Shown here: positions 9,801 to 64,000 of the stretch, piece by piece
How the letters are laid out: each line of letters begins with the position of its first letter
Position numbering within the stretch: the first letter of the stretch is position 1
Program-made: the position numbers and the translations under genes
Origin: a virus
Reading direction: 5' to 3' (one strand)
Length of the DNA: 64,000 bases
IMG/VR virus record: IMGVR_UViG_3300044673_000278
Location: 123,694 to 187,693 of that record
The notes under the pieces: generated by a model
What the model was told of the DNA's origin: nothing
Database searches by the model: none
The model's input: the letters and a program-made list of their open reading frames with translations, nothing else

Positions 9801-12800
9801 ATGTATTACCATTGACTACAAGGTCTCCACCAACAATAACGTTGCCAGTGGTTTCAACAGTTGCCGCAGTGACAGCACCAGCAGTACCAATATTACCACC
9901 AGTTACGTTACCACTCACACTCAATGATGACAATGTACCAACGCTGGTTAGACTGCTGAATAAGACGTTGGAACTTAAAGTGTTTCCAGTGAGAGCGGCA
10001 GCATTTACACCCGAAGCTGTTACGCCTGTCAGTAAACTACCGTTACCAATGAAGTAGTCTGCAGATACGTTACCGGTTACACTTAGAGCAGTTAGTGTAC
10101 CAACACTAGTAATGTTGGGTTGTGCAGAAGTTGTAACAGTACCGGCTGTGGTTGCAGATGTAGCACTGCCAGCACTTGTGGCATAAGTGGCATTGGCCAC
10201 TGTACCTGTGACGTTAGCACCTGTAAGAGAACTTAAACCTGCTCCATTGCCAAAATGTGTGCCGTTGATATTGGCTCCATCAACGTTGCCACTCACACTC
10301 AATGATGTTAGTGTACCGACTGATGTGATATTTGGTTGTGCATTGGTTGTAACGGTACCAGCAGTAGTTGCCGATGTAGCTGATCCTGCCGATGTTGCAT
10401 ATGTAGCATTAGCCACTGTACCAGTGACATTGGCGCCAGTAATTGAACTTAATCCAGCACCGTTACCAAAGAATGTTGAGTTGACATTGCCACCATCAAC
10501 ATTACCGCTTACACTCAAGCTTGATAGTGTACCAACTGATGTGATATTTGGTTGTGCATTGGTTGTAACGGTACCAGCAGTAGTTGCCGAAGTTGCCGAG
10601 CCCGCATTGGTTGCATACGTAGCGTTAGCTACAGTACCTGTGACGTTAGCACCAGTTAGGTTGGTTAATGTAGAACCATTGCCAATAATGTACGAGCCAG
10701 TGACATTGCCTGTAGCACTTACTGCACCAGTTACATCTATTCCGGCAGTGCTAGCAGTTACAACAGTAGCGCCCGAAACAGCCACAGCAACGTTGCCATT
10801 GGGGGTTAGCACAGAAACATTGCTATTGCCGCTGACAATTTGTGTACCAGCACCTACAGCAATGTTGGTCAATTGACTACCATCGCCAATAAAATATCCA
10901 GCAACTACGTTGCCCGAAACATTGAGAGGACCCTGAACATTTCCGCTTAGAGTTAAATTGCTAGCACTTACATTGCCACTGACACTCAAACTTGATAGAG
11001 TACCAACTGATGTAATATTTGGTTGTGAAGCAGTGGTTACTGTGCCAGCAGTTGTAGCCGATGTAGCTGACCCAGCTGATGTGGCATAAGTGGCATTGGC
11101 CACAGTACCGGTGACGTTGGCACCAGTTAAGTTTGAAAGTCCTGCTCCCGAACCAAAGAATGTTGAGTTGACATTGCCACCATCAATGTTGCCAGTTACA
11201 CTCAAACTTGATAGAGTACCAACTGATGTAATGTTAGGTTGTGCGGCGGTGGTCACTGTACCAGCAGTGGTAGCCGATGTAGCACTACCAGCACTTGTGG
11301 CATAAGTGGCATTGGCCACAGTACCTGTAACGTTAGCACCTGTCAAGTTTGATAAGCCTGCACCTGATCCAAAATGTGCGCCGTTGACGTTTGCACCGTC
11401 GATATTACCACTAACACTTAGTGATGTCAATGTACCCACTGATGTGATATTTGGTTGTGCGGCGGTGGTCACTGTACCTGCTGTGGTAGCAGAGGTAGCC
11501 GATCCAGCAGAAGTAGCATAAGTGGCATTGGCCACGGTACCTGTGACATTGGCGCCTGGAATATTTGTTAGTCCCGCAGCATTTCCAACAAACTTGCCCG
11601 ACAACGAAACAACATCTGCGGTAGCGTTAAGGTTACCACCTGAAACGTTTGCAGTAGTTGCTACAACACCGTTTAAGTTTGGTAGACTTCCAGTGTATGT
11701 TGGCAAGTAAGCAGCAACATCAGCGTTGCCATAAGTTGCAGGCAATCCAGTTAGCTGACTACCGTTACCAATAAAATAATTGCCAGTGATGTTGCCAGAG
11801 GCGCTGACTTGCCCAGCGGTGACCAGATTGCCACCAATTACATTACCTGTAACAGTGGTCAAGCCAGAAATCACAGCGTTTGCAGCAACAACGTTACCTT
11901 GTGCAGATAATACGCCTAGCACCGCCAAAGTATTTGAATCTTTGTTGTAGGTCAAACCGGCTACTGCATCGGCATTGCCATTGGTATTGAATAACACTTG
12001 TGTGTTAGCACCTGGCACTACAATATTTGCTGTAATATTGCCAGCAAAATTACCTACAAAGAATCCATCAGTGATTATATTGCCTGACGCACTTACAATA
12101 CCTTGGGTTCTTAAGTTACCACCAGTTACATTACCAGTAGAAGAAACTAGACCAGTTGTATTGATGTTGCCGCCAGTAACGTTGCCAGTAGCTGAGACCA
12201 AACCGCCGGTGTTGACGTTGCCACCTGTGACATTTCCACCTGCAGACACCAATCCAGTAGTATTGATGTTACCGCCAGTGACGTTGCCTGTGCCGGTAAC
12301 ACTGCCTGCAATTACTGCACCAGTTGCTGAGATCAAACCGCCGGTGTTGACGTTGCCACCAATTACATTACCAGATGCAGATATTACTGCACCAGTTACA
12401 GATGTTGTAGCACTAAAATTGTTGGCTGTGGCATTAGCAGATACTGCCAAACTTGACAGTGTGCCCACTGATGTAATGTTAGGTTGTGCGTTTGTGGTTA
12501 CTGTACCAGCTGTGGTAGCCGATGTAGCTGTGCCTGCATTGGTTGCATATGTAGCATTGGCCACAGTACCTGTAACGTTAGCGCCAGCAAGATTGGTCAG
12601 TCCGGCACCATTACCATTGAAAGTTCCGCCATCAACATTGCCACTCACACTCAACGAGCTCAATGTGCCAACTGATGTAATATTTGGCTGTGCGTTTGTG
12701 GTTACAGTGCCAGCTGTGGTAGCACTTGTAGCTGACCCAGCACTACCTGCTGTTGCAGCGTATGTGGCATTGGCCACGGTACCAGTGATATTGGCACCAG

Positions 12801-14521: not shown

Positions 14522-17500
14522 TTAATCGCGTCCTACAACAATCTCAATGATGCCAACATCACCGTTGAAGTTTTCCAAACTCTTGCCAATAATTGTGCCA
14601 GCGGCTGCAGATTTCACAGCTCGAGCTCGTCCATCAGGGGCAGATACCATCAAATCTCCTTTGGCCACTGGTCCTACAACCGCACACGGTACTCGACCTT
14701 GCAAGGCCAATTCCACAGCATAATCGCCATCAAGTCCAGAGTTCATTGTGTAACTTGGATTGGTAGAAACTACGCCAGCTACGCGGTGATCTGCATCTGT
14801 AGTCGATTGTGTGACTTCTTTATCACCACCAAAAACCAACACCGTACCTGGTGCATAGGGTTGATCTGCCAAGAACTTTTCTGCCAAGTCAGCGTATAGA
14901 GCTGTAGTAGCTGTAGCGAATACGCGGTTAAAATAAGTGGTTGAACTACCAATATTGCCCACTCCGTTGCCATTGGCGTTTACAATATTTCCAAGGGTAA
15001 CTGTACCAGTGCTAACACTTAAATTACCGCCGGTGATGTTGGCAGTAACAGCCAAAGAACTCAAAGTGCCAACCGACGTAATATTGGGTTGAGCAGCAGT
15101 AGTTACGGTGCCAGCAGTGGTAGCTGATGTAGCACTGCCTGCAGATGTAGCATAGGTAGCATTAGCCACGGTACCTGTGACATTAGCACCTGTGAGTGCG
15201 CTCAGACTTGCACCATTGCCATAGAACGCAACCGCAGTGATGTTGCCTGACGCACTCATACGCCCGATGTTGACGTTACCAGTGCCGTTAGGTGTTAGTA
15301 CAATGTTAGCATTAACGGCTGTAGTTTGAATATCTAATTGAGAAGAATCATAGATTCCGCCGCTGATGTTTAGGTTGCCACCTGAAATATTTCCAGTAGA
15401 AACACTCAGACTTGCACCAGTAATTGCACCAGTTGCACTTACTTGTCCTGATGTAGTAATATTGCCACCAACAACGTTGCCGCCAGCTGACACTAATCCA
15501 GCTGTATTGACATTTCCGCCTGTGACATTGCCTGTTGCACTTGCAGTACCAGCAGTGGCTAAATTGCCGCCAGTAACTGTGCCACTAGCAGACATTGTTC
15601 CCGAAACTGCGACTCCAGTGTTTGCAACAACTACAACGTTGCTGGTACCGTTTATGCTAATATTGGCATTGCCGTTTAAGGAACCAATGTTAGCTTCGGA
15701 TGTTCCATTAAAAATCTTGCTGGCATTGTAACCTGTGGCAAAAGTAATGTTTCCTAAAATAAATGCACCAGAAACGTTACCAGTTGCTGAAACTCCAGCA
15801 GAAGTATTAATGTTTCCTGTTGCTGTAATTAAACCACCAGTGTTGATGTTTCCACCTGTAACATTGCCAGTGGCTGTAATCAACCCGCCAGTATTAACGT
15901 TTCCGCTAGTTACGTTGCCAGTTGCCAATACTCCGCCGCTGGTGTTGACGTTACCAGTGGCAGTAACAAGACCGCCAGTTCTTATGTTTCCGCCAGTAAC
16001 GTTTCCTGTGGCTAATACTCCGCCACTGGTATTGAGATTTCCAGTCGCTGTAACAAGACCGCCAGTGATCAAGTTTCCACCAGTTACGTTACCTGTAACA
16101 CTGGCAGTAGCAGATACAACCAAAGTATTAATGTTACCGGTGCCAGCAGTGACAAGGTTGCCTCCAGTGATATTACCTGTGGCTGTAATTAATCCGCCGG
16201 TAATCAAATTGCCCGAAGTGGTATTACCAACCACTGACAACGAGCTCATGTTACCAACTGAAGTAATGTTTGGTTGAGCAGCACCACTGACCGTAGCAGA
16301 ATATCCTGAAATGTTAATAGCGTAGATACCTGTGAGTCTATCGCTGGGCACTGTGCCTGTGGTCAAGTTGCTAGCGTTGGCTGCACCAATCACAGTGTTA
16401 AAGTTACCAAAAGTAGCATTGACATTGCCGCCGTTGATGTTGCCTGTGGCACTGACTATACCTGCGGTGTTGACGTTGCCAGCAACCACGTTGCCAGTGG
16501 CTGAAACTACACCAGTCATTGTTAAACTGGTATCTGTTATAATAAGGACGTTAGCCACAGCGTTGACGTCTGCTGTGATTGGACCTGTTGCTGAACGAAC
16601 AGTTAAGTTTGTAACACCGTTTGCTAACTGAGACACTGCCAAGTTTGACACCGCAGTAACGTTGGATAGGAAACCACCGTCGCCTACAAAGTATGCACCA
16701 GTGACAATGTTGCCAGCTGCTGATACCAATCCTGACGAATTAACATTACCGCCAACTACGTTGCCAGTGGCTGTGATTCGACCTGCTGTACCAATATTAC
16801 CGCCTGTGACATTACCTACTGCCGAAATAGTAGAAGTTGCAGTTACTGAACCTGTGTTAGCTACGCCTGGAACATTGACATTTGCACCAGTGATATTTCC
16901 TGATGCACTAACTGTGGTTGCAAAAATGTCTGTGGTTGTTAAATTACCTGTGGCACTAATAATACCTTGGCTGATTAAGTTGCCGCCAGTGATGTTGCCA
17001 GTTGCGCTTACACCGCCTGATCCTGCTGTAATTCTAGTAGTAGCAGATAAGTTGTTTGCAGCCACGTTTGATGTAATAGACAAATTGCCGCCAGCAATGT
17101 TGGCTGCACTTGTAATATTGCCTGTAGCCGATACCAAACCTGCTGTGATATAGTTGCCACCAGTAACGTTGCCAATCACTGTAGCAGTACCGCTGGTATA
17201 AGTATTACCTGACACAGCAAATGTATGCAGCGGAGCGGTGTTTGCAACACCAACATTGCCAACGTTGTCTACTACAAACTTGGCAGAAGCTGCCGATCCG
17301 CCGGTGGATGTTAATACTTCAAAACGTGCGTTACCAGTATCACTGGTTGCTATAGATCTAACCGCAGTGGTTACACGGCCGCCCGGAGAAAGATCGCTTG
17401 TGTACCACTCTACTGCACCCAGCACAGTGTTTGTTGTTACCGTGGTATCAGTGTCGTTGAATATAAACGTAGGCTGGCCGGCGCTAGCGTCCCTAGATAT

Positions 17501-17899
17501 AACAATATTGCCATTGGCATTTAAATTGCCACTAGTACTTACGTTACCAATTGCAGTAATGATACCGTTTGAAGAAACATTTCCTGCTGAAATGTTGCCT
17601 GTAAAACCAATGGATCCTGCAAAAGTTGTTCCTGTTGACGATACAACAACCACATTGCTCACACCGCCTACACTCATGGCAATATTGCCGTTGGGAGAAG
17701 GAATGTCTATGGAAGTTGTGCCGTTAAAAATCTTGTCGCCTGCAATGTTACCAGTTAAACTAGCGTTTCCACTTACACTCAAATCTCCATTGATCACTAC
17801 CGATACTGCGTTGGCTGTAGGTCCAATGAACGACACTGAAGAGTTAGCTTCAAGTGTTTGAAAAACAATATTACCGGTGGAACGCTTATAGGTAGACAT
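14522..17899 (-). CDS. Repeat-rich tail fibre-like protein (1125 aa)
   Basis: The N-terminus reads MSTYKRSTGNIVFQTLEANS. A non-repetitive island at about residues 130-230 (DASAGQPTFIFNDTDTTV, VLGAVEWYTSDLSPGGRV, RFEVLTSTGGSAASAKFVV) resembles receptor-binding knob regions of phage fibres that carry the LGxxEW pattern. GNVTGGNINTGGLVTATGN units follow, with two QPNITSVG units. The ~125-residue C-terminal domain (LYADLAEKFLADQPYAPGTV, FGGDKEVTQST, AGVVSTNPSYTMNSG, IIEIVVGRD) is closely related to the end of the 1437-aa fibre. The start has an AAAGGA site and a GCTAAATA box 17 nt upstream. It is probably a host-recognition fibre, an inference. Confidence 0.87.
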   Translation of the reverse strand: MSTYKRSTGNIVFQTLEANSSVSFIGPTANAVSVVINGDLSVSGNASLTGNIAGDKIFNGTTSIDIPSPNGNIAMSVGGVSNVVVVSSTGTTFAGSIGFTGNISAGNVSSNGIITAIGNVSTSGNLNANGNIVISRDASAGQPTFIFNDTDTTVTTNTVLGAVEWYTSDLSPGGRVTTAVRSIATSDTGNARFEVLTSTGGSAASAKFVVDNVGNVGVANTAPLHTFAVSGNTYTSGTATVIGNVTGGNYITAGLVSATGNITSAANIAGGNLSITSNVAANNLSATTRITAGSGGVSATGNITGGNLISQGIISATGNLTTTDIFATTVSASGNITGANVNVPGVANTGSVTATSTISAVGNVTGGNIGTAGRITATGNVVGGNVNSSGLVSAAGNIVTGAYFVGDGGFLSNVTAVSNLAVSQLANGVTNLTVRSATGPITADVNAVANVLIITDTSLTMTGVVSATGNVVAGNVNTAGIVSATGNINGGNVNATFGNFNTVIGAANASNLTTGTVPSDRLTGIYAINISGYSATVSGAAQPNITSVGNMSSLSVVGNTTSGNLITGGLITATGNITGGNLVTAGTGNINTLVVSATASVTGNVTGGNLITGGLVTATGNLNTSGGVLATGNVTGGNIRTGGLVTATGNVNTSGGVLATGNVTSGNVNTGGLITATGNVTGGNINTGGLITATGNINTSAGVSATGNVSGAFILGNITFATGYNASKIFNGTSEANIGSLNGNANISINGTSNVVVVANTGVAVSGTMSASGTVTGGNLATAGTASATGNVTGGNVNTAGLVSAGGNVVGGNITTSGQVSATGAITGASLSVSTGNISGGNLNISGGIYDSSQLDIQTTAVNANIVLTPNGTGNVNIGRMSASGNITAVAFYGNGASLSALTGANVTGTVANATYATSAGSATSATTAGTVTTAAQPNITSVGTLSSLAVTANITGGNLSVSTGTVTLGNIVNANGNGVGNIGSSTTYFNRVFATATTALYADLAEKFLADQPYAPGTVLVFGGDKEVTQSTTDADHRVAGVVSTNPSYTMNSGLDGDYAVELALQGRVPCAVVGPVAKGDLMVSAPDGRARAVKSAAAGTIIGKSLENFNGDVGIIEIVVGRD

Positions 17900-48788: not shown

Positions 48789-49163
48789 ATGACTACATTT
48801 ATCGGCTTCAACACTATCAATCAATTCAAAAAGTTTACACTCACAGACTTTGCATTGATTCAGCGCGACCTGTTGAATGCCTTTAACATACGTCAAGGCG
48901 AACTTCCAGGCCGTCCTGCATATGGCACTGTGATGTGGGACTTCTTGTTTGAAAATCAAATTGAAGAATTAGCCAACAACATTCGCGCCGAAGTAGAGCG
49001 TGTGGTATCTGGCGATCCTAGAATTGTGGTATCAGACATTCAAATATTTCCGCAGCAAAACGGCATTTTGCTACAGATACAAGTCACAGTGGTGCCCACA
49101 GCCAACGCTGAAATACTCAGTATCTTTTTTGACCTACAACAACGTTCCGCTTCCTACGTATAA
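48789..49163 (+). CDS. gp25: Baseplate wedge protein gp25
   Basis: 124 aa, the usual size (T4 132). FTLTDFALIQRDLLNAFNIR, QGELPGRPAYGTVMWDFLFE and VERVVSGDPRIVVSDIQIFP are the GPW/gp25 family blocks. gp25 joins the wedge to the first sheath ring and is conserved in all contractile tail machines. It lacks a ribosome site; a late-type box is 5 nt upstream. A hairpin follows the stop. Confidence 0.95.
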   Translation: MTTFIGFNTINQFKKFTLTDFALIQRDLLNAFNIRQGELPGRPAYGTVMWDFLFENQIEELANNIRAEVERVVSGDPRIVVSDIQIFPQQNGILLQIQVTVVPTANAEILSIFFDLQQRSASYV

Positions 49164-49208: not shown

Positions 49209-52200
49209 ATGGCACAAACTACTAGACAAACAGCTATCTTTGGCGTTGAAGACTGGAAACAGATCTATCAAACATATCGCGAAGCAGACTTTCAAAGCTA
49301 TGACTTTGAAACTCTGCGCAAAAGCTTTATTGACTATATCCGCCTCTACTACCCTGAAACATTCAATGACTATATTGAATCGTCAGAATTCATTGCTTTG
49401 CTGGACGTTATTGCGTTCATGGGCCAAGCTCTAGCCTTCCGTACAGACCTAAACACTCGTGAAAACTACCTAGACACTGCTGAACGTAGAGATTCAGTGG
49501 TGCGCCTTGCTAATCTTGTTAGCTATACACCCAAGCGTAACACAGCAGCCGAAGGCCTGCTCAAAGTATTCAACGTCACAACTACAGAAAATGTTGTGGA
49601 CTATAACGGTGTTAACCTTTCAAACGTCACCGTGAACTGGGCTGATCCCACAAACCCAGACTGGCAAGAACAGTTTACAACCATTATCAATGCTGCATTG
49701 GTTGACAGCCAAAAAGTGGGACGCCCTGGCAATCGTCAAACTATCCTAGGTGTTCGCACTGACGAATATGCAATTAACCTAGTGCCTGGATTCTTGCCTG
49801 TTGTGCCTTACAGCGCAACAGTGGACGGCATCAACATGCCTTTTGAAGCTGTGACTTCTACCACAGTGGGCGCAGACGTAATCTACGAACCCAGCCCTGT
49901 GTCTAGTACCAGTTTCAACGTGCTGTATCGCAATGACCAACTGGGATTCAACTCTGACAACACAGGTTATTTCTTCCTGTTCAAACAAGGTATTTTGCAA
50001 AATCAAGATTTTAACCTTGCAGAGCGCATCGCTAACCGTACGGTTGACATCAACATCGAAGGTGTCAACAACCAAGACCGTTGGCTGTTCCAACTTGACA
50101 ACCTAGGCAATGTAAGTCGTGAATGGACATACGTTGAAAACGTATACACAGCGGCTGCTGAACAGCAGACCACATTGCGTCCAATTTATTCAACTACCAG
50201 CAGAGCCAATGATCAGATCACTATGATTTTTGGTGATGGCGTGTTCTCTGAAATTCCTGTGGGCACATTCCGTGCATACGTTCGTAGTTCCAACGGATTG
50301 CAGTATATTATCAATCCCGAAGAAATGCAGAACGTTGTGATTCCAATCAGTTACACTGATCGCAACGGCAACCTGCAGACTATTACATTTACTTGCGGTA
50401 TCACTCGTCCTGTGACCAATGCACAGGCACGTGAGCCCATTGCTGCGATCAAACAACGTGCTCCTGCTCGTTACTATACACAGAACCGCATGGTCAACGG
50501 CGAAGATTACAACCTATTCCCGTTTACCCAATATAATTCTATCATCAAGTCAAAGGCATTGAATCGTGCTTCGATTGGTACCAGTCGTTATCTTGATCTA
50601 GTGGACAACACTGGCAAATACAGTTCTACCAATACATTCGGCAGCGACGGCGGATTGTGGGAACAAAACATTCTGCCCACAATACTGTTTTCGTGGACCA
50701 ATCGAAATGAAATTGCTGATGTTATTTCTAACCAAGTTCAGCCAGAGCTTACACAAGCTTCGGTAAAACAATTTTACTATGCCAACTTCCCACGCAAGTC
50801 AATAAACACCATTGACGTGGTTTGTACCGCAACTACTCAAACAGTGAACACTATCACAGTGAGTGATGCCACTGCTGCATTGTTTGGTCAATATGTATTT
50901 GACAACATGCCTGTGGTGTTTGGCAATGCCGGTGACGGAGATGTGTTTGGCGGACTAATCGGTGGCATCACATACTATGTACGTCCCGGTAGCTGGAATG
51001 CCACTGCCAAAACTTTTACAGTGAGTTCAATTGCCAACGGTGGTGTATTCCCTCTCAGTACCACCACAGCTAAATCAGTTGCCACTGTGGCCACTGTGAT
51101 CACCGGCGGAACAGTGTGGAATCAAAGCACAACCATAGCCAACGAAACCACAGGTTATTTCAAAACTGCCACAGGAACACCAGTGCTAGTAGGCCCTGAC
51201 TCGGGCACAAATTTTGAATATGCAGTAACAGGCAGCTTGATTAAATTTGTTGCACCTGCAGGCCAATACTTTGATCGTAACAACAAACTACAATCAGGTA
51301 TTCCTACCAAAACAGAACAAAAAACAGAAATTTGGGCCAGTCCAGTACAAGTTATTGGTGACGGCACAAACTCTAACCTAGGTAACTTCAGCAACGGCAC
51401 AGGTCCCATTACTCTTAATAACTTTGTGCCTACCGGCGCCATTGTAGACACTATCATTCCATTGTTTGTGTCCGATTTGCCTGTGAGCATTGAGCAGCAA
51501 ATGGCTGAACAAATCACACTGTTCAGAAACTTTGGCCTGGGCTACGACAGTGATGGCGCTATCACAGGTACACCGTATTCGTGGTATTTGATTCCATCAC
51601 AATACCTTGACGAAAACGCACCTTGGAGTCAAACCAATGCAGGCCAACCAGTACCCGGCGGCGATGCTAGTTGGATGATTCAATTTGTAGTTGAAAATCA
51701 AAACTACACAATTACTTTCCGCGGCCTGGCCTACTACTTTGGTTCTGTACTACAAACTAGATTCTTCTTCTTTGAGGATCAGCAAGTGTACGACAGTCGT
51801 ACAGGCACAGTAATCAAAGACTTTATCAATGTCTTGGCCATGAATAGCCGCCCTGGCGACACACTGGGCGAGCCTTTGCAGAGCGACATACCAGTGACTA
51901 TCATTGGTCAGCCAGTGGAAAGCGACGGCTATGTAGATGACTTCCAAGTGTTGGTCAGTTATCGAGACTCAGACAACGATGGAGTGCCCGACAATCCAGA
52001 TTTCTTTGACGAAATTGTTGGTACAGTGCCTGCTACTGCCAACGCAAGCTCTCCTTGGGTGTTCTTGGAACGCACAGTTGACTTCGACAACCTACAAAGA
52101 TATCTGCTGGTAGACAGTGATAGAGTAGTAAGTCAATACGGAACTTTGGACGAGATTGAATTGGTCAAGACTGAATGGACACCGGGACAAGTGTTCTATG

Positions 52201-52940
52201 CCTACAGCGAAAATACTTTCTACAGACTAAACATCACAGTTACTGGAGTCAGAGAACTTATTGAATTTGAACAAGGTGAGTGGCTTGCACGTTCGGGGCG
52301 CCAAGGCCTGTACTATCAGTATCGTCACAACTCGCCGCTGACTAACCGTATCGACCCAGGCACATCCAACATTATTGACCTTTATGTTGTTACACAGGCC
52401 TACTATACTGCATATCAGAACTGGTTGCGAGATACCACTGGCACCGTAGTAGAGCCTGAACAACCTACCATTGATGAGTTGAACACTGCATATCAAGGAT
52501 TGCAGGACTACAAAATGGTGTCGGACAACATTGTATTGAACTCGGTTACCTTTAAGCCATTGTTTGGCGCCAAAGCATCACCTGAGCTCAGAGCCACAAT
52601 CAAAGTTATTCGTGCGCAAAATTCAACAGCATCTAGTTCAGAGATCAAGTCGGCAGTGCTGGCACAGATGAATGAATACTTCAGTATTGACAAGTGGAAT
52701 TTTGGAGACACGTTCTACTTCTCAGAACTGGCTGCATATTTGCACCGAACTTTAGGAACCATAATTAGTAGTGTGGTCCTAGTTCCTTTAGATCCTCAAA
52801 AAGCTTTTGGCGATCTTTATGAAATCCGATCACAACCTAACGAAATATTTGCCAATGGCGCAACCATTGACAATATTGATGTAATTGAAGCATTGACAAG
52901 TACTAACTTGCGTACCGCAGCCGGCAGTGGAGTAATTTAA
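49209..52940 (+). CDS. gp6: Baseplate wedge protein gp6, enlarged
   Basis: 1243 aa against 660 in T4. The N-terminal part (SFIDYIRLYYPETFNDYIES, FIALLDVIAFMGQALAFRTD, NTRENYLDTAERRDSVVRLA) is clear gp6. The middle has YSTTSRANDQITMIFGDGVF and ARYYTQNRMVNGEDYNLFPF, also gp6 blocks. Residues ~535-650 hold an inserted beta-rich module (VCTATTQTVNTITVSDATAA, GITYYVRPGSWNATAKTFTV) like that in the neighbouring giant protein. The C-terminus returns to gp6-like sequence (MNEYFSIDKWNFGDTFYFSE). It forms the wedge ring of the baseplate. Its stop overlaps the next ATG (TAATG). Confidence 0.93.
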   Translation: MAQTTRQTAIFGVEDWKQIYQTYREADFQSYDFETLRKSFIDYIRLYYPETFNDYIESSEFIALLDVIAFMGQALAFRTDLNTRENYLDTAERRDSVVRLANLVSYTPKRNTAAEGLLKVFNVTTTENVVDYNGVNLSNVTVNWADPTNPDWQEQFTTIINAALVDSQKVGRPGNRQTILGVRTDEYAINLVPGFLPVVPYSATVDGINMPFEAVTSTTVGADVIYEPSPVSSTSFNVLYRNDQLGFNSDNTGYFFLFKQGILQNQDFNLAERIANRTVDINIEGVNNQDRWLFQLDNLGNVSREWTYVENVYTAAAEQQTTLRPIYSTTSRANDQITMIFGDGVFSEIPVGTFRAYVRSSNGLQYIINPEEMQNVVIPISYTDRNGNLQTITFTCGITRPVTNAQAREPIAAIKQRAPARYYTQNRMVNGEDYNLFPFTQYNSIIKSKALNRASIGTSRYLDLVDNTGKYSSTNTFGSDGGLWEQNILPTILFSWTNRNEIADVISNQVQPELTQASVKQFYYANFPRKSINTIDVVCTATTQTVNTITVSDATAALFGQYVFDNMPVVFGNAGDGDVFGGLIGGITYYVRPGSWNATAKTFTVSSIANGGVFPLSTTTAKSVATVATVITGGTVWNQSTTIANETTGYFKTATGTPVLVGPDSGTNFEYAVTGSLIKFVAPAGQYFDRNNKLQSGIPTKTEQKTEIWASPVQVIGDGTNSNLGNFSNGTGPITLNNFVPTGAIVDTIIPLFVSDLPVSIEQQMAEQITLFRNFGLGYDSDGAITGTPYSWYLIPSQYLDENAPWSQTNAGQPVPGGDASWMIQFVVENQNYTITFRGLAYYFGSVLQTRFFFFEDQQVYDSRTGTVIKDFINVLAMNSRPGDTLGEPLQSDIPVTIIGQPVESDGYVDDFQVLVSYRDSDNDGVPDNPDFFDEIVGTVPATANASSPWVFLERTVDFDNLQRYLLVDSDRVVSQYGTLDEIELVKTEWTPGQVFYAYSENTFYRLNITVTGVRELIEFEQGEWLARSGRQGLYYQYRHNSPLTNRIDPGTSNIIDLYVVTQAYYTAYQNWLRDTTGTVVEPEQPTIDELNTAYQGLQDYKMVSDNIVLNSVTFKPLFGAKASPELRATIKVIRAQNSTASSSEIKSAVLAQMNEYFSIDKWNFGDTFYFSELAAYLHRTLGTIISSVVLVPLDPQKAFGDLYEIRSQPNEIFANGATIDNIDVIEALTSTNLRTAAGSGVI

Positions 52941-55900
52941 TGGCCCGAGTAAGATCAGTAGATTTTCTACCAGAAATTTTTAGAACAGACGCCAACAAGC
53001 AATTCTTGGCAGCTACTCTTGATCAGTTGATCCAAGAGCCTAAGTTCAAAAAAACACAAGGTTATATTGGTAGAACTGTAGGACCGGGTGTAAACCCCAA
53101 CGATCGTTATGTAGTTGAGCCAACCAAAACTAGATCAGATTATCAGCTGGAAACTACAGTTGTTAATCTGCGTCCTGAAACCAACATCATACAAAACGCA
53201 ATCACATACCCAGGCATCAACGATGCCATTCGTCTAGCCGGCGGTAACAGCAGCCGTCCCGATCGTCTGTATGAAAGTGATTACTATACTTGGGACCCGT
53301 TTGTTGATTTTGATACTTTTGTAAACTTCAGTCAATACTATTGGTTACCCAACGGGCCTGACGCTGTGGAAGTATCAGCTTCTACTATTCCTGCCACAGA
53401 AAATTTTGTTGTCACTCGCGAAAACGGGGTATACACATTCTCTGGATTGCCAGGCACAAACCCTAATATTGAGTTAGTGCGCGGCGGCAGCTACACATTC
53501 CAAGTAGCGCAAAATGCCAAAGAAACTGTTAACTATCGCGTGGGCAATCAAGGCAATGCAGCCTACCTTATTGATTTTGTCAGCAACCCCACACTGACAC
53601 TGGCTCGTGGCAACACCTACGTGTTCAACGTTGACACCCAAGGTGTCTATCCTTTCTGGATCAAAACAGCACCTACCACTGGCACTGGCGATGCCTACAG
53701 CATCGGTGTAACACGCAACGGTGCATCAACCGGCCTGGTAACTTTTGTTGTGCCCCAAGATGCTCCTGACACACTGTATTACATCAGTCAGACAGTGTCA
53801 AACATGGGCGGCCAGATCAACATTGTCGATGGCACACCGGGCACAGGTCCTGGATTTTGGATTCAAACCAATCCTGGAGTATCTGGTCGTATTCCCACAA
53901 CACCAAACATCAGCAGTAGAGATGTGTTTGGTGTAGTTAACAATGGCGAAGACCTTGGTGTAGTTACATTTGATGTGCCCACCCGCACTGCACAAGAGTT
54001 TTTCTATAACCTCGATCCCACAGTTCAACCTGTTGACCTAGTTACTGATTTGAATTTTAGTCAAATCAACAATGCAAGACTTGATCAGTTTGTTGCACAA
54101 TACGGCGGCATCGATGGTATTACCAGTCTTGAAGGTAGAAACCTTGTGTTTATTGGCTCCTCAGAGGACGATGCAGCGTGGGAGCGCACTAGCTTTTTTG
54201 ATCCTTTAAATGCTGGACTATCTAACAATGGTCTTCCGGGCAGCTACGATACCTTGACTTACTCTGAAGAGAACTTGATACCTCTAGCTGATCGTCGACA
54301 GATCTGGCAAATCGGCTATGTTGTTGACAACGGCCTTACCTATCTTCGTTTGACCAAACTTACTAACATTGACGAATTACAAAAGTTCAGTGTGAGATAC
54401 GGTAATGTGTACAGCAATACCAATTGGTACAAAACCAACGTTGGAGAAATCAAACAGATTCCGTTGTTGACTGCTGCTCTAAACACATTATATTACCAAG
54501 ACGGTACAGACCCAGAAATTTTTGGTCGCATCACGCTGCTTGAGCAACCCGAAGAGTCTACTCTGTTTATCAACAACATTATTGGACAACCAAACTACAC
54601 TTCTCCCAACGGAGTTGAGTTCACCAACGGACTCAAAGTGGTATTCCGTGGAGATGTACGTCCAGCAAGTTACAAATCAGGCTCAATTGCTTTTACTTGT
54701 ACAGCAACCACTGCTGGTACCAACACAATTACAACTTACAGCACAGAAGATCTATATCCTGGTCTTGCAGTGGTATTCACTGACCCCACCGGCGGACTTG
54801 TCAGCGGCGTAACATACTATGTCAGTTCAGTTGTAAACTTGTTTGAGTTTACTGTGGCTGCTACACCTGGTGGCCTACCTGTGACACTGACCAACAGTAC
54901 AGCTGACTTTGATGCTTTGGCCATAGTTTACAAAGAATATTATGTGTCTGGAGTAGGCACTGGAATCAGACTGTTGCCTGTAACCAACTTTGTTACTCCA
55001 GAGACCTATGTTGAAGCCAGCAACGACAGCAGTTTGCCTGTGCCCGAAGAACCTGATTATCTAACCATCGACCGCGGCAGCAGAGATCTCAATGCCTGGA
55101 GCCGCTCAAACCGTTGGTTCCACATTGATGTTATCAATGCCACATCAGCTTATAACGGCACTATTGCTGTGCTAGACAACAATTTTAGAGCCAAGCGTCC
55201 TATTATTCAGTTCCGCCCAGATCTAAGATTGTACAACATGGGCACACAAGGCAAGCAGCCTGTGGATATCATTGACTTCAACGAAACAGATGCTCTAAGT
55301 AACATTCAAGGTGCTACTAGTTATTCAGTAGACGGATACAGTTTTGTAAACGGTACACGAGTTATTTTTGCCGCCGACGAAGACAACCAGGTCAGAAACA
55401 AAATTTATGTTGTTGAGTTTATTACACCCGACACAGTTGCTCCATTGATTGATCAACCAATCATTAATCTCACACTGGCCACTGACGGTAATGTTGAAAT
55501 AAACGAAAGCACACTGATACTGCAAGGTCAAACCCTACAAGGAAAGACTTACTGGTATGACGGTGTCGAGTGGACCGAAGCACAACAAAAAACTGCAATA
55601 CAACAAGCACCGTTGTTTGACATCTATGATTCAGACGGCGTAAGTTTTGGTAACCGCGCAGTCTATCCAAGTTCAAACTTCAACGGTAGCAAGTTGTTCA
55701 GTTATGCAATAGGTGATACTGGCATTCTAGACACAGTATTGAAATTCCCGTTGAAATATCTAAACATTGCCAACGTAGGCGATATTGTTTTTGACAATAA
55801 TTTCTACGCTGATACTTTTGTGTATACTGTAAACAACGTCAGCACCGAATTGCCTATCAGCCGCGGATATGTTAGAGAATATGCAACTCGCACAACATAT

Positions 55901-58900
55901 CAATCTTTGATTGGTTGGCAGAATGCAGTGGCTCCAACCAGAGTATATCAGCAATTTAAATTTGCATACGACGGCAGACCGCTGACTGTGGACGTTCGTG
56001 CCAATGACGCTGGCACCGTGCCAGTGATTAAAATTTATGTTGGATCAGCGTATGTATTGCCACGAGACTTTACCTATACACGTACCAGCAATACTACCAC
56101 AATTACTCTGTCCAAAGTTTACGCACCTGACGACATCATTGAAGTGCTGGTGCTCAGCGATCAAACCAGCAAAACTGGATTCTATCAAGTTCCTATCAAC
56201 TTGGAAAACAATCCGCTGAACGGCAACAGTGACACTTTCACTCTGGGTACAGTTCGTCAACACTATCAGACAATTTGCGAAAACCTCAGCACATTCTCAG
56301 GATCAATCTCTGGCGCTAACAACACTAGAGACCTGGGAAATATTGTTCCCTATGGACTGAAGATTCTTCAACAAAGTTCTCCGCTGACCATGGCTGGCTA
56401 TTTCATGCGCAGCGAAGAATACAATGTATTCAATTCGTTGGTTTACAACAGTCGTGAGTATATCAAGATGAAAAACTTGATACTCAACAATGTAACTCAA
56501 CAAAACATACAGTTCCAGACTCCGGCGCAGATACTGGACGAAGCAATAGAAATGCTAACTGCTGGTCGAGTAGAATCACAACCATTCTACTGGAGTGACA
56601 TGTTGCCGTCAGGCGCTGTGTACACTGATACAACCTATACCATTGGTTTTACAACCACCGACGTGTTTGATACAGTGTTGGTACATGATTATACCAAGTC
56701 GAATTATCAGGGTATGAACGTGTATCTCAACAACGTAATTCTCACAAGAAACCTAGATTATGTTGTGGCTACCGACGGTCCTCGTATCACTGTATTGACT
56801 AACTTAAATGTTGGCGATGTACTGGTCATTCGTGAATACACAGCAACCTATGGTAACTTTGTACCAAACACACCGTCTAAGATGGGTCTGTACCCAGCTT
56901 GGCGTCCTGAAATAACCACTATTGTATCATCGACTGGAACACAAGAAGTTATTATTGGGCATGATGGTTCTGTGACACCAGTGTTTGGTGATGTTCGTGA
57001 CGATGTATTGTTGGAATTCGAAACTAGAATTTTCAACAATATCAAGATGGATGACAATCCTATTCCTCTAACTGTGGCAGACGTAATTCCGGGTCAGTTC
57101 CGCGTTACTGGTTATTCAAACAACGAGATCAACGGTATCCTTGATCAGCAGTTTTTGAGCTATGTTGCTTGGAACAAGCTGGATTACAACACTCAAAATT
57201 ACAGTGCCAGCAACGAGTTTACTTGGAACTATAGTTCAGCACAAAACAAACTCAACAATCAAAACTTGTTGGGCGCCTGGCGCGGCATCTATAGATATTT
57301 CTACGATACACAACAACCAGAATTAACACCTTGGGAAATGTTGGGCCTCACAGTAAAACCAGACTGGTGGGACAACACCTACGGTACTGCACCGTATACA
57401 TCTGGAAACTTGGTGTTGTGGGATGACCTTGAAGCTGGTTATGTTAGAGATCCTGTGGCTCCTTACTATAACTTGCAATATGCTCGTCCAGGTTTGACTC
57501 AGGTAATCCCTACCAGCGACGAAGGTGAATTGCTGAGCCCGTTTGACTGTGTTGTAGGAACATACGACAACACACAATTCCGCAAGAGTTGGGGCACTGC
57601 CGACGGCGGTCCTGTGCAAGCATCGTGGTACAACAGCTCAGACTATCCTTTTGCTGTGATGCGTTTGTTGGCGCTGACCAAGCCGGCACAGTTCTTTGCA
57701 CTGTTTGCTGACAGAGATTTGTATCGATACAACGCTGACCTTGATCAGTACCTGTACAACAATCGTTATAGACTCGACGCCAATGGCGTTGAAGTGTATG
57801 GCAACGGATTGAGCAAAGCCAGTTTTATCAACTGGATTGTAGATTACAACCGTCAGAGTGGACTGGACTCAACTGCGGATCTAACAGCCAATTTGGCTAG
57901 CCTTGATGTTCGCCTGAGCTATCGTTTGGCCAGCTTCTCAGACAAGCAATACATTAAGATTTTCACTGAAAAGTCCAGCCCTAATTCTACCAATACTTCA
58001 TTCTTGATACCAGACGAAAGTTATAACTTGATTCTGTACAAGAACCAACCATTTGAACGAATTACCTATAGCTCGGTGCTGGTCCAACAAGTGCCCGGCG
58101 GCTATTCAGTGTTTGGTTACAGCACTGTACAACCGTACTTTAATGTCTTGCGCAGTGTGCCCAACGGCAGATTGCAAACCATAAGTGTAGCCGGCGCAAC
58201 TGTGAGAGTTCCCACTACATATTCGGACACTGTGGTACAGATACCCTATGGCTATGTGTTTAACAACACAACGTCCGTGGTTGATTTCTTGCTGAGCCTT
58301 GGCAAATACTATGAGACACAAGGTCTAGAATTTACCAACATTGACAATGGTTATGTGCTGACATGGGGTCAAATGGCACAGGAATTCCTGTACTGGAGCC
58401 AACAAGGTTGGGACACAGATGCATTGATTAACCTCAATCCGCTGGCAACCAAACTCAGTGTCACACGAGAGCAAGCTGTGGTTGATAGCATCAAAACACA
58501 GACCAGCCAGAACGTACTGTTGGATCAAAACCGTCAAGAACTACCAACCAAGAATGTAAACATTGTCAGAGTTGACAACACATTCTCTGTTCAGCCCCTA
58601 GTGGATCAAACACTGAGTTTTGTTGAACTCAATTATACTTCCTACGAACACATGATTGTGTTGGATAATGTCAGTGTGTTTGGCGACTTGATTTATCAAC
58701 CTATTACTGGCGCTCGCCAGAGCCGACTCAACTTGGTCATGACCAACAGCACCGACTGGAACGGCAGTGTTGACGCTCAAGGCTTTATTCTCAATCAGAA
58801 CAATGTAGAAGAGTGGACAGGACTGCGTACATACAGCAAAGGCGAAATCGTCAAGTACAAAAACAGATTCTGGAGTGCTGCTACCATTGTACAGCCCAGC

Positions 58901-61900
58901 GTTGAATTCAATTACAGTGACTGGTTGCAAAGCGACTATGAACAAATTGAACAAGGCTTGTTGCCAAACTTGGCCAACAAAGCTGATCAACTGGAAAACA
59001 GTTACAACATCAACACAGCCAACGTTGAGAGCGAAAATGACTTGTTCAGTTATGGACTGATTGGATTCCGACCACGCGAATACATGGCTGCATTGAACCT
59101 TGACGATGTAAGTCAGGTCAACATCTATCGACAGTTCTTGGGCAGCAAAGGTACTATTCTAAGTGCAGAACTGTTCAGTCAAGCCAACCTTGGCAAAGAA
59201 AGTGCTGATTACGATATCTATGAAAACTGGGCGGTACAACGTGCTGTGTACGGCGCTAATGCTAACCGCAGTTATGTAGAATTGCGACTGAACCGTGCGC
59301 TGTTGAGTGCAAGTCCTAGCACAATACAAGTAACAAATCCTCAGGAACCCAGCGTTGCAGATCAACAGATATTCCTGAGCAATGTTTGGAAACAAAGTTT
59401 CAAATTGACTTCTCCAGACTTCCTGCCGACTACCACTGAGCTGCCTACAGACATTGGTTTGCCCGGTGCTGGTTACGTCAATTTAAATGATGTTGATATC
59501 ACAATATTTGATATCAACGATTCAGACAACATCTTGGCCAATCTTGATCAAGTTGTTAATGGCGCTACAATTTGGGCAGCTAAAGTAAACAACTATGATT
59601 GGAATGTGTATCAGTGTGATGCTGTGCCTGGTGTGATCAGTCACGTTTGCGATAACTTAGACTTTACCAGCAGAGTAATTTTTACCCAGCAACACAATCT
59701 CACTGTTGGCGAAAAACTGATTATCAAGTATTTTGACACTGAAGTTGACGGCGTGTACGAAGTACTGTCAGTGCCAACGCTAACTGAAATTACCATTGCC
59801 TTCCAGTTTGCAGGAAATCGAACAGTTGTCAACGGCAACGGCATAGGCTTTACTCTAAAGAGCCTGCGAGTCGCTCAAGCCAGCGATGTTGTAGACTTAC
59901 CGTATGCCAACAACATTGGTACCAACATCAAAGTATGGGTCGACAACAACGGCGACAACCTCTGGGAAGTGTTGGAAAAAAATGTAGTGTTCAATCAGGT
60001 AACTGAACTTGCACCCAAAACTCTAGATGCTAGAGAAGAATTTGGTCGTTCTATTGCACAAGGCGGCGATCAATTTGCAGCCTTGGTAGGTAGCCCCAAT
60101 TACCTAGCAGGTACAGATCCTTACCAGCGCGGCGCAGTGTATGTCTATGTAAAAGATTTCAGCGGCAATTATCAACCAGTAAGCCCTGTAGATAATTCAG
60201 ATGCTATTTTGACTCTATCTGTAGAGCAAAGCGCCGGCGTTCCTGCAGTTCGAGGATATGGATACTCAGTTGACTTTGGCAACAAAGATTGGGCTATAGC
60301 TGGTGCACCTTATAGTCTTGGATCTGCAGGGCAGGCCAACAATGGATATGCTTGTGTAATTTACAGAGATCAGTCTTCGTACACTCCTGGCACCAATCCG
60401 TACTTCAACTGGCAAATGCTTACTACACCTGACAGTGTCAGTGTAGACCAAGGCAAGTTTGGTTACAGCGTAACCATGAGTCAGGACGAGCGTTGGATGT
60501 ACGTTGGTGCACCTGCTGTGAACAAAGTTTACGCATATGGTCGAGTTGACTGGCAAGATCAGACTGTGAATGCTCGTGGCGACGGCGCCACTACTACATT
60601 TAATTTTGATGACAATATCAAAATTGCAGCAAACACACAGATTCGTGTGACCTTAGACGGCGCTACACAAACATTGGGTGTTGACTATACAGTTAGTTCG
60701 CTGTCATCGGTTGTGTTTGCAACTGCACCAGCAGATGGTGTTCTTGTAACAATCACACGTATTTCTTTGTATCAGTTGACAACCAACGGAGTTACCACAT
60801 CGTTTGCGTTGGCACCTTACTTGTATCAAGTAGGATTAACTGACAGCACAATCAACAGTTTCAGCATTGAAATAGACACTGTGCTTCAGCGACCCAACAT
60901 TGACTATACATTCAATACATCAACCAAACAAGTGACATTTGCAGTGGCACCTGGATCTTCGGATGTTGTTATTGTACGAGCCAAAGGATACTGGCAGTAT
61001 GTAGACACACTTACAGCAGCCGGCTTAGCTAGCGATGCCAACTTTGGACAAAGTATCAGCTGCACCACAGATGGGCGACAAGTTCTAATTGGTGCTTCGG
61101 GCGTGGATGTTGGCAGCGAAGCTGATGCTGGATCGGTATATGTGTTTGACAGAAACGTTCAGCGATTCATCTACCAAGGCAGCAGTGACATTGTGTTCAG
61201 TGTCGATGGCACAGTCACCGAGCCTGTTAGTGTAATTGTAAACAATCAATTCTTGGTCAACGAACTATACAGCTCGCCGGCTGCTACCAATACATTCTCT
61301 GTGAGTGGCAACAATGTTACAATCAACTATCCGTTGAGCATTGGAGATATTGTTGAAATTGAAACCAATCAATTTGTACTTGCCCAACAGATCACACAGG
61401 ATGTACCTGCTGAGTTCTCTAACTATGGACAGAGCGTTGACATCTGTAATTACAATTGCAGTTTGTATGTTGGCGCACCTCAAAGCAGTATTCAAGTGTA
61501 CAAAGGTGGTGTTGTAGAACGACAAGTAAACCAAGCCAGAGTGTATGGCACAATTACTTCTACCGTTTCTAATCCTACCCTCACTGCTGGTGATACTCTG
61601 CGTGTCAACAACATTGACGTATTTGTTCCTGTGGCTCCCAACAACAACATTGCCGGCCTTGCTGCTGCAATTCAAAACACAGTTCCCAACACCACAACAT
61701 TGGTAACTGCGGACGGCAAGCTCACAATCAGTGTTGCAAATACCAACGCAGCACCATTTGGCAACAAGCTCCAAGTTGCTCCAGGCAGCATTGGATCAGC
61801 GTTTGATGATCTTGGTTTTGAAATGTTTGTGTACACACAAACTATCACAAGCCCTTATCCACAAAACTATGCACAGTTTGGTTACAGTGTAAACGTAGAT

Positions 61901-64000
61901 GACACTGCAACAACCTTGGTTGTTGGAGCACCAACAGGAACCACTTACATCATTGCTGTATGGGATGACAACACCACAGATTGGGATGCCGGCGCCACTG
62001 AATTCTTTAGCGGCGTGCCACAGAGCGGTGCTGTTTACACATACGATTATTTAAATGCAGCATCACCGTCTATAACCAACCCAGGAAAATTTGTGTTTGG
62101 TACACAGGTAGAAATCCCATCGTTGATCTACGGCGACAACTTTGGTACCAGTGTAAATTACGCTTCGGGCGTGCTGTGGATGTCTGCACCCGGTGACGAT
62201 TTCAACGATTCTTCGTCATCTAACTACGGTCGTGTATACGTTTGGAGTAACCCAACTCGTGAACCTACTTGGTTGCCTGTGAGACTTCAGCAACCTACTG
62301 TAGACATTCGCCTGTTGAACTCTGTGTTCTTGTACGATCAAGTTACATCAGCAACCACAGAGTTCTTGGATTTCTTCAACCCACTGCAAGGCAAGATCCT
62401 TGGTGCGGCACAACAGAACATTGATTACACAGGTGCTGTTGATCCTGCTGGATACAACGCTGGTCCAAGAAACAATCGTGGATCTACTTGGGGCAAAGAA
62501 CACGTAGGCGAAGTTTGGTGGGATATCAGTTCAGTGAGATTCATTGATCCCAACCAAGACGACATTGTTTATGCAAGCCGTCGTTGGGGTCAACTATTCC
62601 CGGGCAGCACCGTAAATGTTTATCAGTGGATTGAGAGCCCTGTACCGCCAGCTAACTATACAGGCCCTGGTACACCGCTTGACACATTGAGTTTCACCAT
62701 TAACAACACCCTCAATCAACAAGGTGTGTTCAGCACACAATATTACTTCTGGGTGCGCGGGTTGACCACAGTGGCCACTCAACGAGGTAAAACTCTAAGC
62801 GTTGACACGGTTGCAAGATACATTGAAAATCCACGTGCAACTGGTATTTCATACTTGGCACCCATTGATGCCAACACAGTGGCAATTTACAACTGCGAAA
62901 CATTGATTGAAGCACAAGATACTGTGCTGCACATCGAGTTTGATAGAGAGCTAACTGACGACAATGTTCACGTTGAATATGAATTAATTCCTCAGGATCG
63001 CGAAGACGGTTTCTTGAGCACTGGACTCTATAGAAAGTTCCAGGACAGCCTATGCGGTGTTGACACCGCTGGCAACCAAGTACCTGACTTGAACCTAAGT
63101 CCTGCAGAACGCTACGGTGTACAATTCCGTCCACGTCAGTCGATGTTTGTTGACAGATTTGCAGCACTGCAAAACTATGTCAACAAAGTTAACAATGTGT
63201 TGGCTCAATATCCTATCACTGAGATTCGCAGTTTTAACTTGTTAAACAGTGCTGATCCTGTGCCCAAAGCAGGTACAGGTGAATGGAACATGGAAGTAGC
63301 TAACCTTGAGATTCTTGGCTTCCAAAATATCTACGCAGTACCACTGGGTTATAGATATCTTGTGCTGTCTGACGCAGACAACCGAGGACTGTGGACCATC
63401 TACGAAGTTCAATCAGTAGCTGGCAGCACCCTGGGTGCTAGGGACCTAGTACTGATCAAAGTACAAAACTACAACACACCCGACTACTGGAACTATATCA
63501 ATTGGTATCGAGTAGGATACAACTCAAGTATCAAGCCAATTGCTGAAGTTCCTACATTCAGCAGCCTTGACACAATTGACGTGCCAGTTGGTAGTTCAGT
63601 CAAAGTCACCGCAAACGCCCAAGGCAAGTTTGAAATTTATCTGCTGACCGAACTTGGATGGGAGCGTGTAGGTCTCCAGGACGGAACCATTGCAATATCT
63701 AACGAAGTTTGGAATTACTCTATTGGTCGATTTGGGTTTGATGCAGAAGTGTTTGATGCTCAATACTACGATCAAGAACCCAGCATCGAAACTCGTAAGA
63801 TTATTCAAGCAATCAACGAAGAATTGTTAATCGACGAATTGGCTATTGAGCGTAACCGTGCGCTGATTCTAATGTTCAACTTTATTCTCAGCGAATTTAC
63901 AGCACCTGAGTGGTTGGTTAAGACCAGCTTGGTTGACGTTGACCACAGAATTCGTGAGCTGCTGCCATTCCAGAACTACAGCAGAGATAACCAAGAGTTT
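52940..64000 (+). CDS. Giant baseplate-associated protein at the gp7 position (at least 3687 aa, cut by edge)
   Basis: An open frame from ATG 52940 to the right edge, 3687 codons with no stop. The N-terminus (MARVRSVDFLPEIFRTDANK, FLAATLDQLIQEPKFKKTQG, YIGRTVGPGVNPNDRYVVEP) matches large proteins following gp6 in aquatic T4-like phages, where T4 has gp7 (1032 aa, wedge initiator); equivalence rests on position and remembered similarity. YYWLPNGPDAV (~136-146) and the TRIxTYYV-type modules near ~590-650 recur elsewhere. Residues ~2367-3095 hold seven FG-GAP units suggestive of an integrin-type beta-propeller, with beta modules (VTLDGATQTLGVDYTVSS, IEIDTVLQRPNIDYTF) inserted. It is translationally coupled to gp6. 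Probable wedge scaffold carrying carbohydrate- or protein-binding domains, the latter inferred. Confidence 0.85.
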   Translation, partial: MARVRSVDFLPEIFRTDANKQFLAATLDQLIQEPKFKKTQGYIGRTVGPGVNPNDRYVVEPTKTRSDYQLETTVVNLRPETNIIQNAITYPGINDAIRLAGGNSSRPDRLYESDYYTWDPFVDFDTFVNFSQYYWLPNGPDAVEVSASTIPATENFVVTRENGVYTFSGLPGTNPNIELVRGGSYTFQVAQNAKETVNYRVGNQGNAAYLIDFVSNPTLTLARGNTYVFNVDTQGVYPFWIKTAPTTGTGDAYSIGVTRNGASTGLVTFVVPQDAPDTLYYISQTVSNMGGQINIVDGTPGTGPGFWIQTNPGVSGRIPTTPNISSRDVFGVVNNGEDLGVVTFDVPTRTAQEFFYNLDPTVQPVDLVTDLNFSQINNARLDQFVAQYGGIDGITSLEGRNLVFIGSSEDDAAWERTSFFDPLNAGLSNNGLPGSYDTLTYSEENLIPLADRRQIWQIGYVVDNGLTYLRLTKLTNIDELQKFSVRYGNVYSNTNWYKTNVGEIKQIPLLTAALNTLYYQDGTDPEIFGRITLLEQPEESTLFINNIIGQPNYTSPNGVEFTNGLKVVFRGDVRPASYKSGSIAFTCTATTAGTNTITTYSTEDLYPGLAVVFTDPTGGLVSGVTYYVSSVVNLFEFTVAATPGGLPVTLTNSTADFDALAIVYKEYYVSGVGTGIRLLPVTNFVTPETYVEASNDSSLPVPEEPDYLTIDRGSRDLNAWSRSNRWFHIDVINATSAYNGTIAVLDNNFRAKRPIIQFRPDLRLYNMGTQGKQPVDIIDFNETDALSNIQGATSYSVDGYSFVNGTRVIFAADEDNQVRNKIYVVEFITPDTVAPLIDQPIINLTLATDGNVEINESTLILQGQTLQGKTYWYDGVEWTEAQQKTAIQQAPLFDIYDSDGVSFGNRAVYPSSNFNGSKLFSYAIGDTGILDTVLKFPLKYLNIANVGDIVFDNNFYADTFVYTVNNVSTELPISRGYVREYATRTTYQSLIGWQNAVAPTRVYQQFKFAYDGRPLTVDVRANDAGTVPVIKIYVGSAYVLPRDFTYTRTSNTTTITLSKVYAPDDIIEVLVLSDQTSKTGFYQVPINLENNPLNGNSDTFTLGTVRQHYQTICENLSTFSGSISGANNTRDLGNIVPYGLKILQQSSPLTMAGYFMRSEEYNVFNSLVYNSREYIKMKNLILNNVTQQNIQFQTPAQILDEAIEMLTAGRVESQPFYWSDMLPSGAVYTDTTYTIGFTTTDVFDTVLVHDYTKSNYQGMNVYLNNVILTRNLDYVVATDGPRITVLTNLNVGDVLVIREYTATYGNFVPNTPSKMGLYPAWRPEITTIVSSTGTQEVIIGHDGSVTPVFGDVRDDVLLEFETRIFNNIKMDDNPIPLTVADVIPGQFRVTGYSNNEINGILDQQFLSYVAWNKLDYNTQNYSASNEFTWNYSSAQNKLNNQNLLGAWRGIYRYFYDTQQPELTPWEMLGLTVKPDWWDNTYGTAPYTSGNLVLWDDLEAGYVRDPVAPYYNLQYARPGLTQVIPTSDEGELLSPFDCVVGTYDNTQFRKSWGTADGGPVQASWYNSSDYPFAVMRLLALTKPAQFFALFADRDLYRYNADLDQYLYNNRYRLDANGVEVYGNGLSKASFINWIVDYNRQSGLDSTADLTANLASLDVRLSYRLASFSDKQYIKIFTEKSSPNSTNTSFLIPDESYNLILYKNQPFERITYSSVLVQQVPGGYSVFGYSTVQPYFNVLRSVPNGRLQTISVAGATVRVPTTYSDTVVQIPYGYVFNNTTSVVDFLLSLGKYYETQGLEFTNIDNGYVLTWGQMAQEFLYWSQQGWDTDALINLNPLATKLSVTREQAVVDSIKTQTSQNVLLDQNRQELPTKNVNIVRVDNTFSVQPLVDQTLSFVELNYTSYEHMIVLDNVSVFGDLIYQPITGARQSRLNLVMTNSTDWNGSVDAQGFILNQNNVEEWTGLRTYSKGEIVKYKNRFWSAATIVQPSVEFNYSDWLQSDYEQIEQGLLPNLANKADQLENSYNINTANVESENDLFSYGLIGFRPREYMAALNLDDVSQVNIYRQFLGSKGTILSAELFSQANLGKESADYDIYENWAVQRAVYGANANRSYVELRLNRALLSASPSTIQVTNPQEPSVADQQIFLSNVWKQSFKLTSPDFLPTTTELPTDIGLPGAGYVNLNDVDITIFDINDSDNILANLDQVVNGATIWAAKVNNYDWNVYQCDAVPGVISHVCDNLDFTSRVIFTQQHNLTVGEKLIIKYFDTEVDGVYEVLSVPTLTEITIAFQFAGNRTVVNGNGIGFTLKSLRVAQASDVVDLPYANNIGTNIKVWVDNNGDNLWEVLEKNVVFNQVTELAPKTLDAREEFGRSIAQGGDQFAALVGSPNYLAGTDPYQRGAVYVYVKDFSGNYQPVSPVDNSDAILTLSVEQSAGVPAVRGYGYSVDFGNKDWAIAGAPYSLGSAGQANNGYACVIYRDQSSYTPGTNPYFNWQMLTTPDSVSVDQGKFGYSVTMSQDERWMYVGAPAVNKVYAYGRVDWQDQTVNARGDGATTTFNFDDNIKIAANTQIRVTLDGATQTLGVDYTVSSLSSVVFATAPADGVLVTITRISLYQLTTNGVTTSFALAPYLYQVGLTDSTINSFSIEIDTVLQRPNIDYTFNTSTKQVTFAVAPGSSDVVIVRAKGYWQYVDTLTAAGLASDANFGQSISCTTDGRQVLIGASGVDVGSEADAGSVYVFDRNVQRFIYQGSSDIVFSVDGTVTEPVSVIVNNQFLVNELYSSPAATNTFSVSGNNVTINYPLSIGDIVEIETNQFVLAQQITQDVPAEFSNYGQSVDICNYNCSLYVGAPQSSIQVYKGGVVERQVNQARVYGTITSTVSNPTLTAGDTLRVNNIDVFVPVAPNNNIAGLAAAIQNTVPNTTTLVTADGKLTISVANTNAAPFGNKLQVAPGSIGSAFDDLGFEMFVYTQTITSPYPQNYAQFGYSVNVDDTATTLVVGAPTGTTYIIAVWDDNTTDWDAGATEFFSGVPQSGAVYTYDYLNAASPSITNPGKFVFGTQVEIPSLIYGDNFGTSVNYASGVLWMSAPGDDFNDSSSSNYGRVYVWSNPTREPTWLPVRLQQPTVDIRLLNSVFLYDQVTSATTEFLDFFNPLQGKILGAAQQNIDYTGAVDPAGYNAGPRNNRGSTWGKEHVGEVWWDISSVRFIDPNQDDIVYASRRWGQLFPGSTVNVYQWIESPVPPANYTGPGTPLDTLSFTINNTLNQQGVFSTQYYFWVRGLTTVATQRGKTLSVDTVARYIENPRATGISYLAPIDANTVAIYNCETLIEAQDTVLHIEFDRELTDDNVHVEYELIPQDREDGFLSTGLYRKFQDSLCGVDTAGNQVPDLNLSPAERYGVQFRPRQSMFVDRFAALQNYVNKVNNVLAQYPITEIRSFNLLNSADPVPKAGTGEWNMEVANLEILGFQNIYAVPLGYRYLVLSDADNRGLWTIYEVQSVAGSTLGARDLVLIKVQNYNTPDYWNYINWYRVGYNSSIKPIAEVPTFSSLDTIDVPVGSSVKVTANAQGKFEIYLLTELGWERVGLQDGTIAISNEVWNYSIGRFGFDAEVFDAQYYDQEPSIETRKIIQAINEELLIDELAIERNRALILMFNFILSEFTAPEWLVKTSLVDVDHRIRELLPFQNYSRDNQEF
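60041..62260 (+). repeat. Seven FG-GAP repeats in the giant protein
   Basis: Each unit has (F/Y)GxS(I/V), then a strand and (V/A)G(A/S)P or a close variant, and often G-x-V-Y-V. Approximate residues: FGRSIAQGGDQFAALVGSP (2367), YGYSVDFGNKDWAIAGAP (2438), FGYSVTMSQDERWMYVGAP (2507), FGQSISCTTDGRQVLIGAS (2701), YGQSVDICNYNCSLYVGAP (2828), FGYSVNVDDTATTLVVGAP (2979), FGTSVNYASGVLWMSAP (3067). Seven is the blade number of integrin-alpha propellers. Calcium-binding DxDxDG loops are not obvious. Confidence 0.75.

Follow-up and report, generated by a model that had tools for sequence, protein, structure and literature searches.

The locus encodes a giant, predicted virion structural protein directly downstream of two baseplate wedge genes. 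The DNA analyzed here is a 64,000-nt window of a 251,693 bp virus record from IMG/VR, in which a gp25-like baseplate wedge gene (48789..49163, plus strand) is followed by a gp6-like baseplate wedge gene (49209..52940, plus strand; phrog_10646 and phrog_219) and then by the giant ORF (52940..64000, plus strand; ORF list and source record), which is assigned to phrog_10938, virion structural protein. The start and most of the length of this ORF lie within the window, which holds residues 1-3687. The ORF is still open at the window end, and the complete protein in the source record is 4842 aa long (L001 1..14529). The portal protein of this phage is nearest to those of Atu_ph07 and PA5oct. Elsewhere in the window, three large minus-strand ORFs (2219-6532, 6868-14463, and 14522-17899, encoding 1437, 2531, and 1125 aa) are repetitive paralogues with about 30-40% identity. 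A further ORF of 597 aa, which lies downstream of the giant (L001 15328-17121), is related to these three.

The giant has two conserved cores, and homologues of both are present in the jumbo phages PA5oct, Atu_ph07, RaK2, and Salicola phage SCTP-2. The N-terminal part spans residues 1-2330 (52940..59929, plus strand), and the C-terminal core starts at residue 3113 and continues to about residue 3731, beyond the window end (62276..64000, plus strand; L001 9337-11193). Within the N-terminal part, a module of about 100 aa (residues 198-297; 53531-53830) has 37-52% identity to tail-fibre and baseplate-connector proteins of cyanophages and pelagiphages, and positions 1665-1742 of the N core profile (alignment A4) weakly match the All3316 protein in the PDB (entry 7b5h, E=0.0017). 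The first-pass annotation had described small beta modules common to the giant and other genes in the window. Such sharing was detected weakly, as matches to the gp6-like protein at 534-621 (E=3e-4) and to a small ORF at 1830-2219 (E=0.004).

Seven FG-GAP units are located between the two cores, at residues 2366-3105, in agreement with the earlier placement of seven such units between residues ~2367 and ~3095. All seven were found on the plus strand with a repeat HMM: unit 1 (residues 2366-2406; 60035..60157), unit 2 (2438-2478; 60251..60373), unit 3 (2505-2537; 60452..60550), unit 4 (2700-2739; 61037..61156), which also has a Pfam match, unit 5 (2827-2860; 61418..61519), unit 6 (2978-3039; 61871..62056), which has a hairpin in its b-c loop, and unit 7 (3066-3105; 62135..62254). 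The expected FG-GAP profile match was obtained with Pfam PF14312 (FG-GAP_2, E=1.4e-14), although PF01839, the older and classic FG-GAP model, had no match on the genome. In order to avoid circularity, the repeat HMM was trained solely on propellers of a distant clade and then applied to the window protein, where it recovered the same seven units and no more (9.5, 18.1, 20.9, 24.5, 27.0, 31.1, and 39.1 bits). The best of 200 shuffled sequences reached 2.9 bits and the reversed window protein gave nothing; the seven-unit pattern thus exceeds chance. A phmmer search of the propeller against PDB sequences returned chance-level matches only. The hairpin of unit 6 contains a TTFD-like motif (61934-62026) that recurs in the consensus throughout the propeller lineage.

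Residues ~2350-3115 are strongly predicted to fold into a single seven-bladed beta-propeller of the FG-GAP/integrin-alpha type, with closure of the ring read from the pTM and the fold match. The AlphaFold2 model of residues 2331-3127, built with 26 related sequences, has a mean pLDDT of 84.7 and a pTM of 0.88, and the predicted secondary structure is consistent with four strands per unit. In a Foldseek search of the PDB, the six best matches were integrin alpha chains (alpha-5, alpha-6, and alpha-V; best E 1.4e-9), with a TM score of 0.63 normalised to the integrin alpha-5 chain. Other PDB matches included the portal-tail complex of cyanophage A4 (9k09) and tailspike TSP4 of CBA120, and matches among viral models included FG-GAP proteins, a structural protein of cyanophage S-TIM5, and an Atu_ph07 protein. 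The integrin-like propeller proposed at first pass is therefore upheld by profile, repeat number, model, and fold search alike. It had been suggested at the same time that structure prediction might instead return separate beta domains; long inserts do keep units 3, 4, 5, and 6 apart, and small beta modules are abundant in the protein. Seven beta repeats that are unrelated and distributed over individual small domains are nevertheless very improbable, as the prediction is a single confident domain with integrin alpha as its best fold match, and the count of seven is conserved over a deep clade.

The likeness to integrin alpha-5, alpha-V, and alpha-6 lies in seven FG-GAP repeats in a seven-bladed ring, which is predicted here. 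The phage propeller differs in having about 10% identity to the integrin alpha chains, in carrying its inserts in other loops, in being embedded in a phage structural protein, and in lacking DxDxDGxxD blade loops. The blades of the window propeller contain no DxDxDGxxD calcium motif, and among relatives the pattern was present in 14 of 128, mostly in the segment preceding unit 1. The integrin-like fold together with blades free of this motif therefore indicates a propeller of the FG-GAP_2 kind and not an integrin. Proteins with Pfam FG-GAP_2 repeats share with the window protein and nearly all of its relatives a profile match above cut-off (26/26 close relatives and 28/30 distant members), whereas here the repeats are flanked by the conserved cores of a giant virion protein and have modules inserted in them.

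The beta modules noted earlier between some blades are present inside units 3, 4, and 5, between strands c and d (plus strand). They comprise 146 aa in unit 3 (about residues 2537-2682; 60548..60985), ~70 aa in unit 4 (about residues 2739-2803; 61154..61348), and 98 aa in unit 5 (about residues 2865-2962; 61532..61825). The insert of unit 3 contains a module resembling the N-terminal part of the T7 tail fibre (residues 2542-2609), which was found in 7 of 26 close relatives, while Flagellin_IN was found in four of the 26. Across 102 distinct propellers with seven units under the refined repeat model, the spacing from unit 3 to unit 4 ranges from 117 to 409 aa and that from unit 1 to unit 2 from 50 to 199 aa, yet the count stays at seven. 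A single distant member has a CBM_5_12-like insert, just below the Pfam cut-off, and one of 30 distant propellers contains a YHYH domain (PF14240, E=2.5e-35; alignment A7). Two more stretches of the protein of one relative (L007) appear CBM_5_12-like by eye and have no profile match. Loops vary more than strands (0.54-0.58 versus 0.71-0.82), which is usual for propellers.

Many seven-bladed propellers are carbohydrate-active, and the ring or one of its inserts could act on a host surface polymer as a depolymerase- or lyase-like enzyme. Single members have weak matches to the Lactonase and NANM propellers, and the YHYH domain of one member fits the same idea. However, the best matches are to FG-GAP proteins and integrins rather than to enzymes, and no catalytic motif was identified, leaving an enzymatic role improbable.

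The propeller is restricted to part of a large family of core-bearing giants. IMG/VR scans that used either the propeller or the C core as query gave at least 575 core relatives; counts drawn from this set depend on the choice of query and should not be read as frequencies. Exactly seven units were present in 112 of the 135 core-bearing giants first examined, and 43 giants with the core and sufficient upstream sequence had no unit under the refined model. All propeller-bearing members found here are on metagenomic contigs. In PA5oct and RaK2, the gene immediately before the giant is annotated as baseplate wedge; in Atu_ph07 and SCTP-2, it is a large gene at the corresponding position. The propeller was absent from the giants of all four of these cultured phages. 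Thus PA5oct gp355, RaK2 ORF070, CBB_236, and the Atu_ph07 structural protein share with the window giant the homologous cores and the position after gp6, but the three of these that were scanned, PA5oct, RaK2, and Atu_ph07, lack a propeller where the cores join. In the cultured relatives, the sequences filling the junction showed no match to FG-GAP, nor did any Pfam family exceed its cut-off in them. A tblastn search of a cultured-phage collection with the window propeller and a distant one returned no match, a result that very divergent copies could escape. Bacterial genome contigs gave no clue to a source or host.

An unrooted tree was built from 74 C cores with the propeller left out, and presence was scored as at least three units detected. 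The 41 members with the propeller and the 33 without it were split by one branch (SH-aLRT 100), corresponding to one change, and none of the 41 sampled members on the propeller side had lost it. The root is unplaced, so this change is either one gain or one loss. The propeller is thus strongly predicted to have undergone a single gain or loss where the two conserved cores meet, in a T4-like jumbo phage lineage.

The name gp7 is a positional label only for the giant. The first-pass annotation had placed it at the gp7 position, which the order 25-6-giant supports; sequence homology to T4 gp7 was not found. T4 gp7, as stated there, is 1032 aa long and has no propeller, and what it shares with the giant is its gene position after gp6. 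Alignment of both cores with the single sequence of T4 gp7 in hhalign gave a probability of 0.2, with no similarity detected. The C core, which is widespread in jumbo phages, was modeled with a pLDDT of 82.9 and a pTM of 0.56, and its PDB fold search returned nothing at E<=0.001 (best 0.18). No relationship to T4 gp7 thus emerged from the profile comparison of both cores or from the C-core fold search.

Homologues of the giant have been detected in virions. The record of the propeller-less PA5oct homologue gp355 carries the note ESI-MS/MS, that is, virion mass spectrometry, and CBB_236 was identified in virions by mass spectrometry (PMC5259590). CBB also encodes propeller proteins of the Kelch type, and one of these is a virion component (PMC5259590). 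Propellers at phage baseplates are already known in a few cases whose roles are unproven, and the present one would be a variant of these. In the jumbo phage phiKZ, gp131 ends in a C-terminal seven-bladed propeller (4GBF) at the baseplate periphery and is a proposed but unproven receptor binder (PMC4901313). It belongs to a separate phage group, and a gp131-type match was looked for and not found among the best 50 fold matches listed for the window propeller. The baseplate receptor-binding protein of Staphylococcus phage phi11 likewise contains a propeller, proposed to hold GlcNAc, but it is five-bladed, its protein is trimeric, and it is not an FG-GAP protein as described (PMC4901313). The open-access literature searched made no mention of FG-GAP, baseplate, and phage together. 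The gene order, the detection of homologues in virions by mass spectrometry, and these precedents make it plausible that, as first suggested, the giant sits at the baseplate periphery and binds surface polymers.

A propeller in this setting might also be purely structural, serving as a packing domain between wedges or between wedge and fibre with no host contact. In the T7 nozzle protein gp12, subunits touch through an extended loop on a blade of the seven-bladed propeller (PMC6702177), and the similarity in fold to the portal-tail complex of cyanophage A4, the T7 tail-fibre-like insert, and the model match to TSP4 would all suit such a part, as would the lack of any loss among the 41 members. 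Against this, relatives with equivalent cores do without any propeller, and the inserts vary in kind and length among lineages, unlike a conserved packing surface. We regard a purely structural role as a serious possibility that falls short of an even chance.

The explanation we favor, to which we give roughly even odds of being correct, is that a rigid FG-GAP propeller near the baseplate acts as a platform whose variable inserts make contact with the host surface or with fibres. The propeller would have been gained or lost once between the two conserved cores and then inherited vertically, its ring would serve as the rigid support, and the blade-loop modules (T7 tail-fibre-like here and CBM_5_12-like in another clade) would contact the host surface or attached fibres. 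The seven-unit count holds while insert lengths and families differ, and a ring that is kept while the modules plugged into it change suggests a fixed platform for host contact. These observations do not tell apart contact between module and host, docking between module and fibre, and contact through the ring face. Full retention across the clade would fit a purely structural part equally well. More speculatively, and with considerable doubt on our part, an integrin-alpha-type head in this deep uncultured jumbo lineage may be a permanent adhesion platform on which exchanged inserts change the grip; if true, phages have evolved an integrin-like device for adhesion of their own. Here a single ring can be followed across a large environmental lineage, with a single clean gain or loss and striking differences in the inserts, and the choice between platform and receptor binder is therefore testable by comparison of ring and inserts.

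FG-GAP_2 repeats also occur outside the giant in one cultured relative. Atu_ph07, whose giant has no propeller, encodes them in a separate 393-aa gene annotated as a hemagglutinin protein (MF403008.1 243018-244199; L249 7019-8200).
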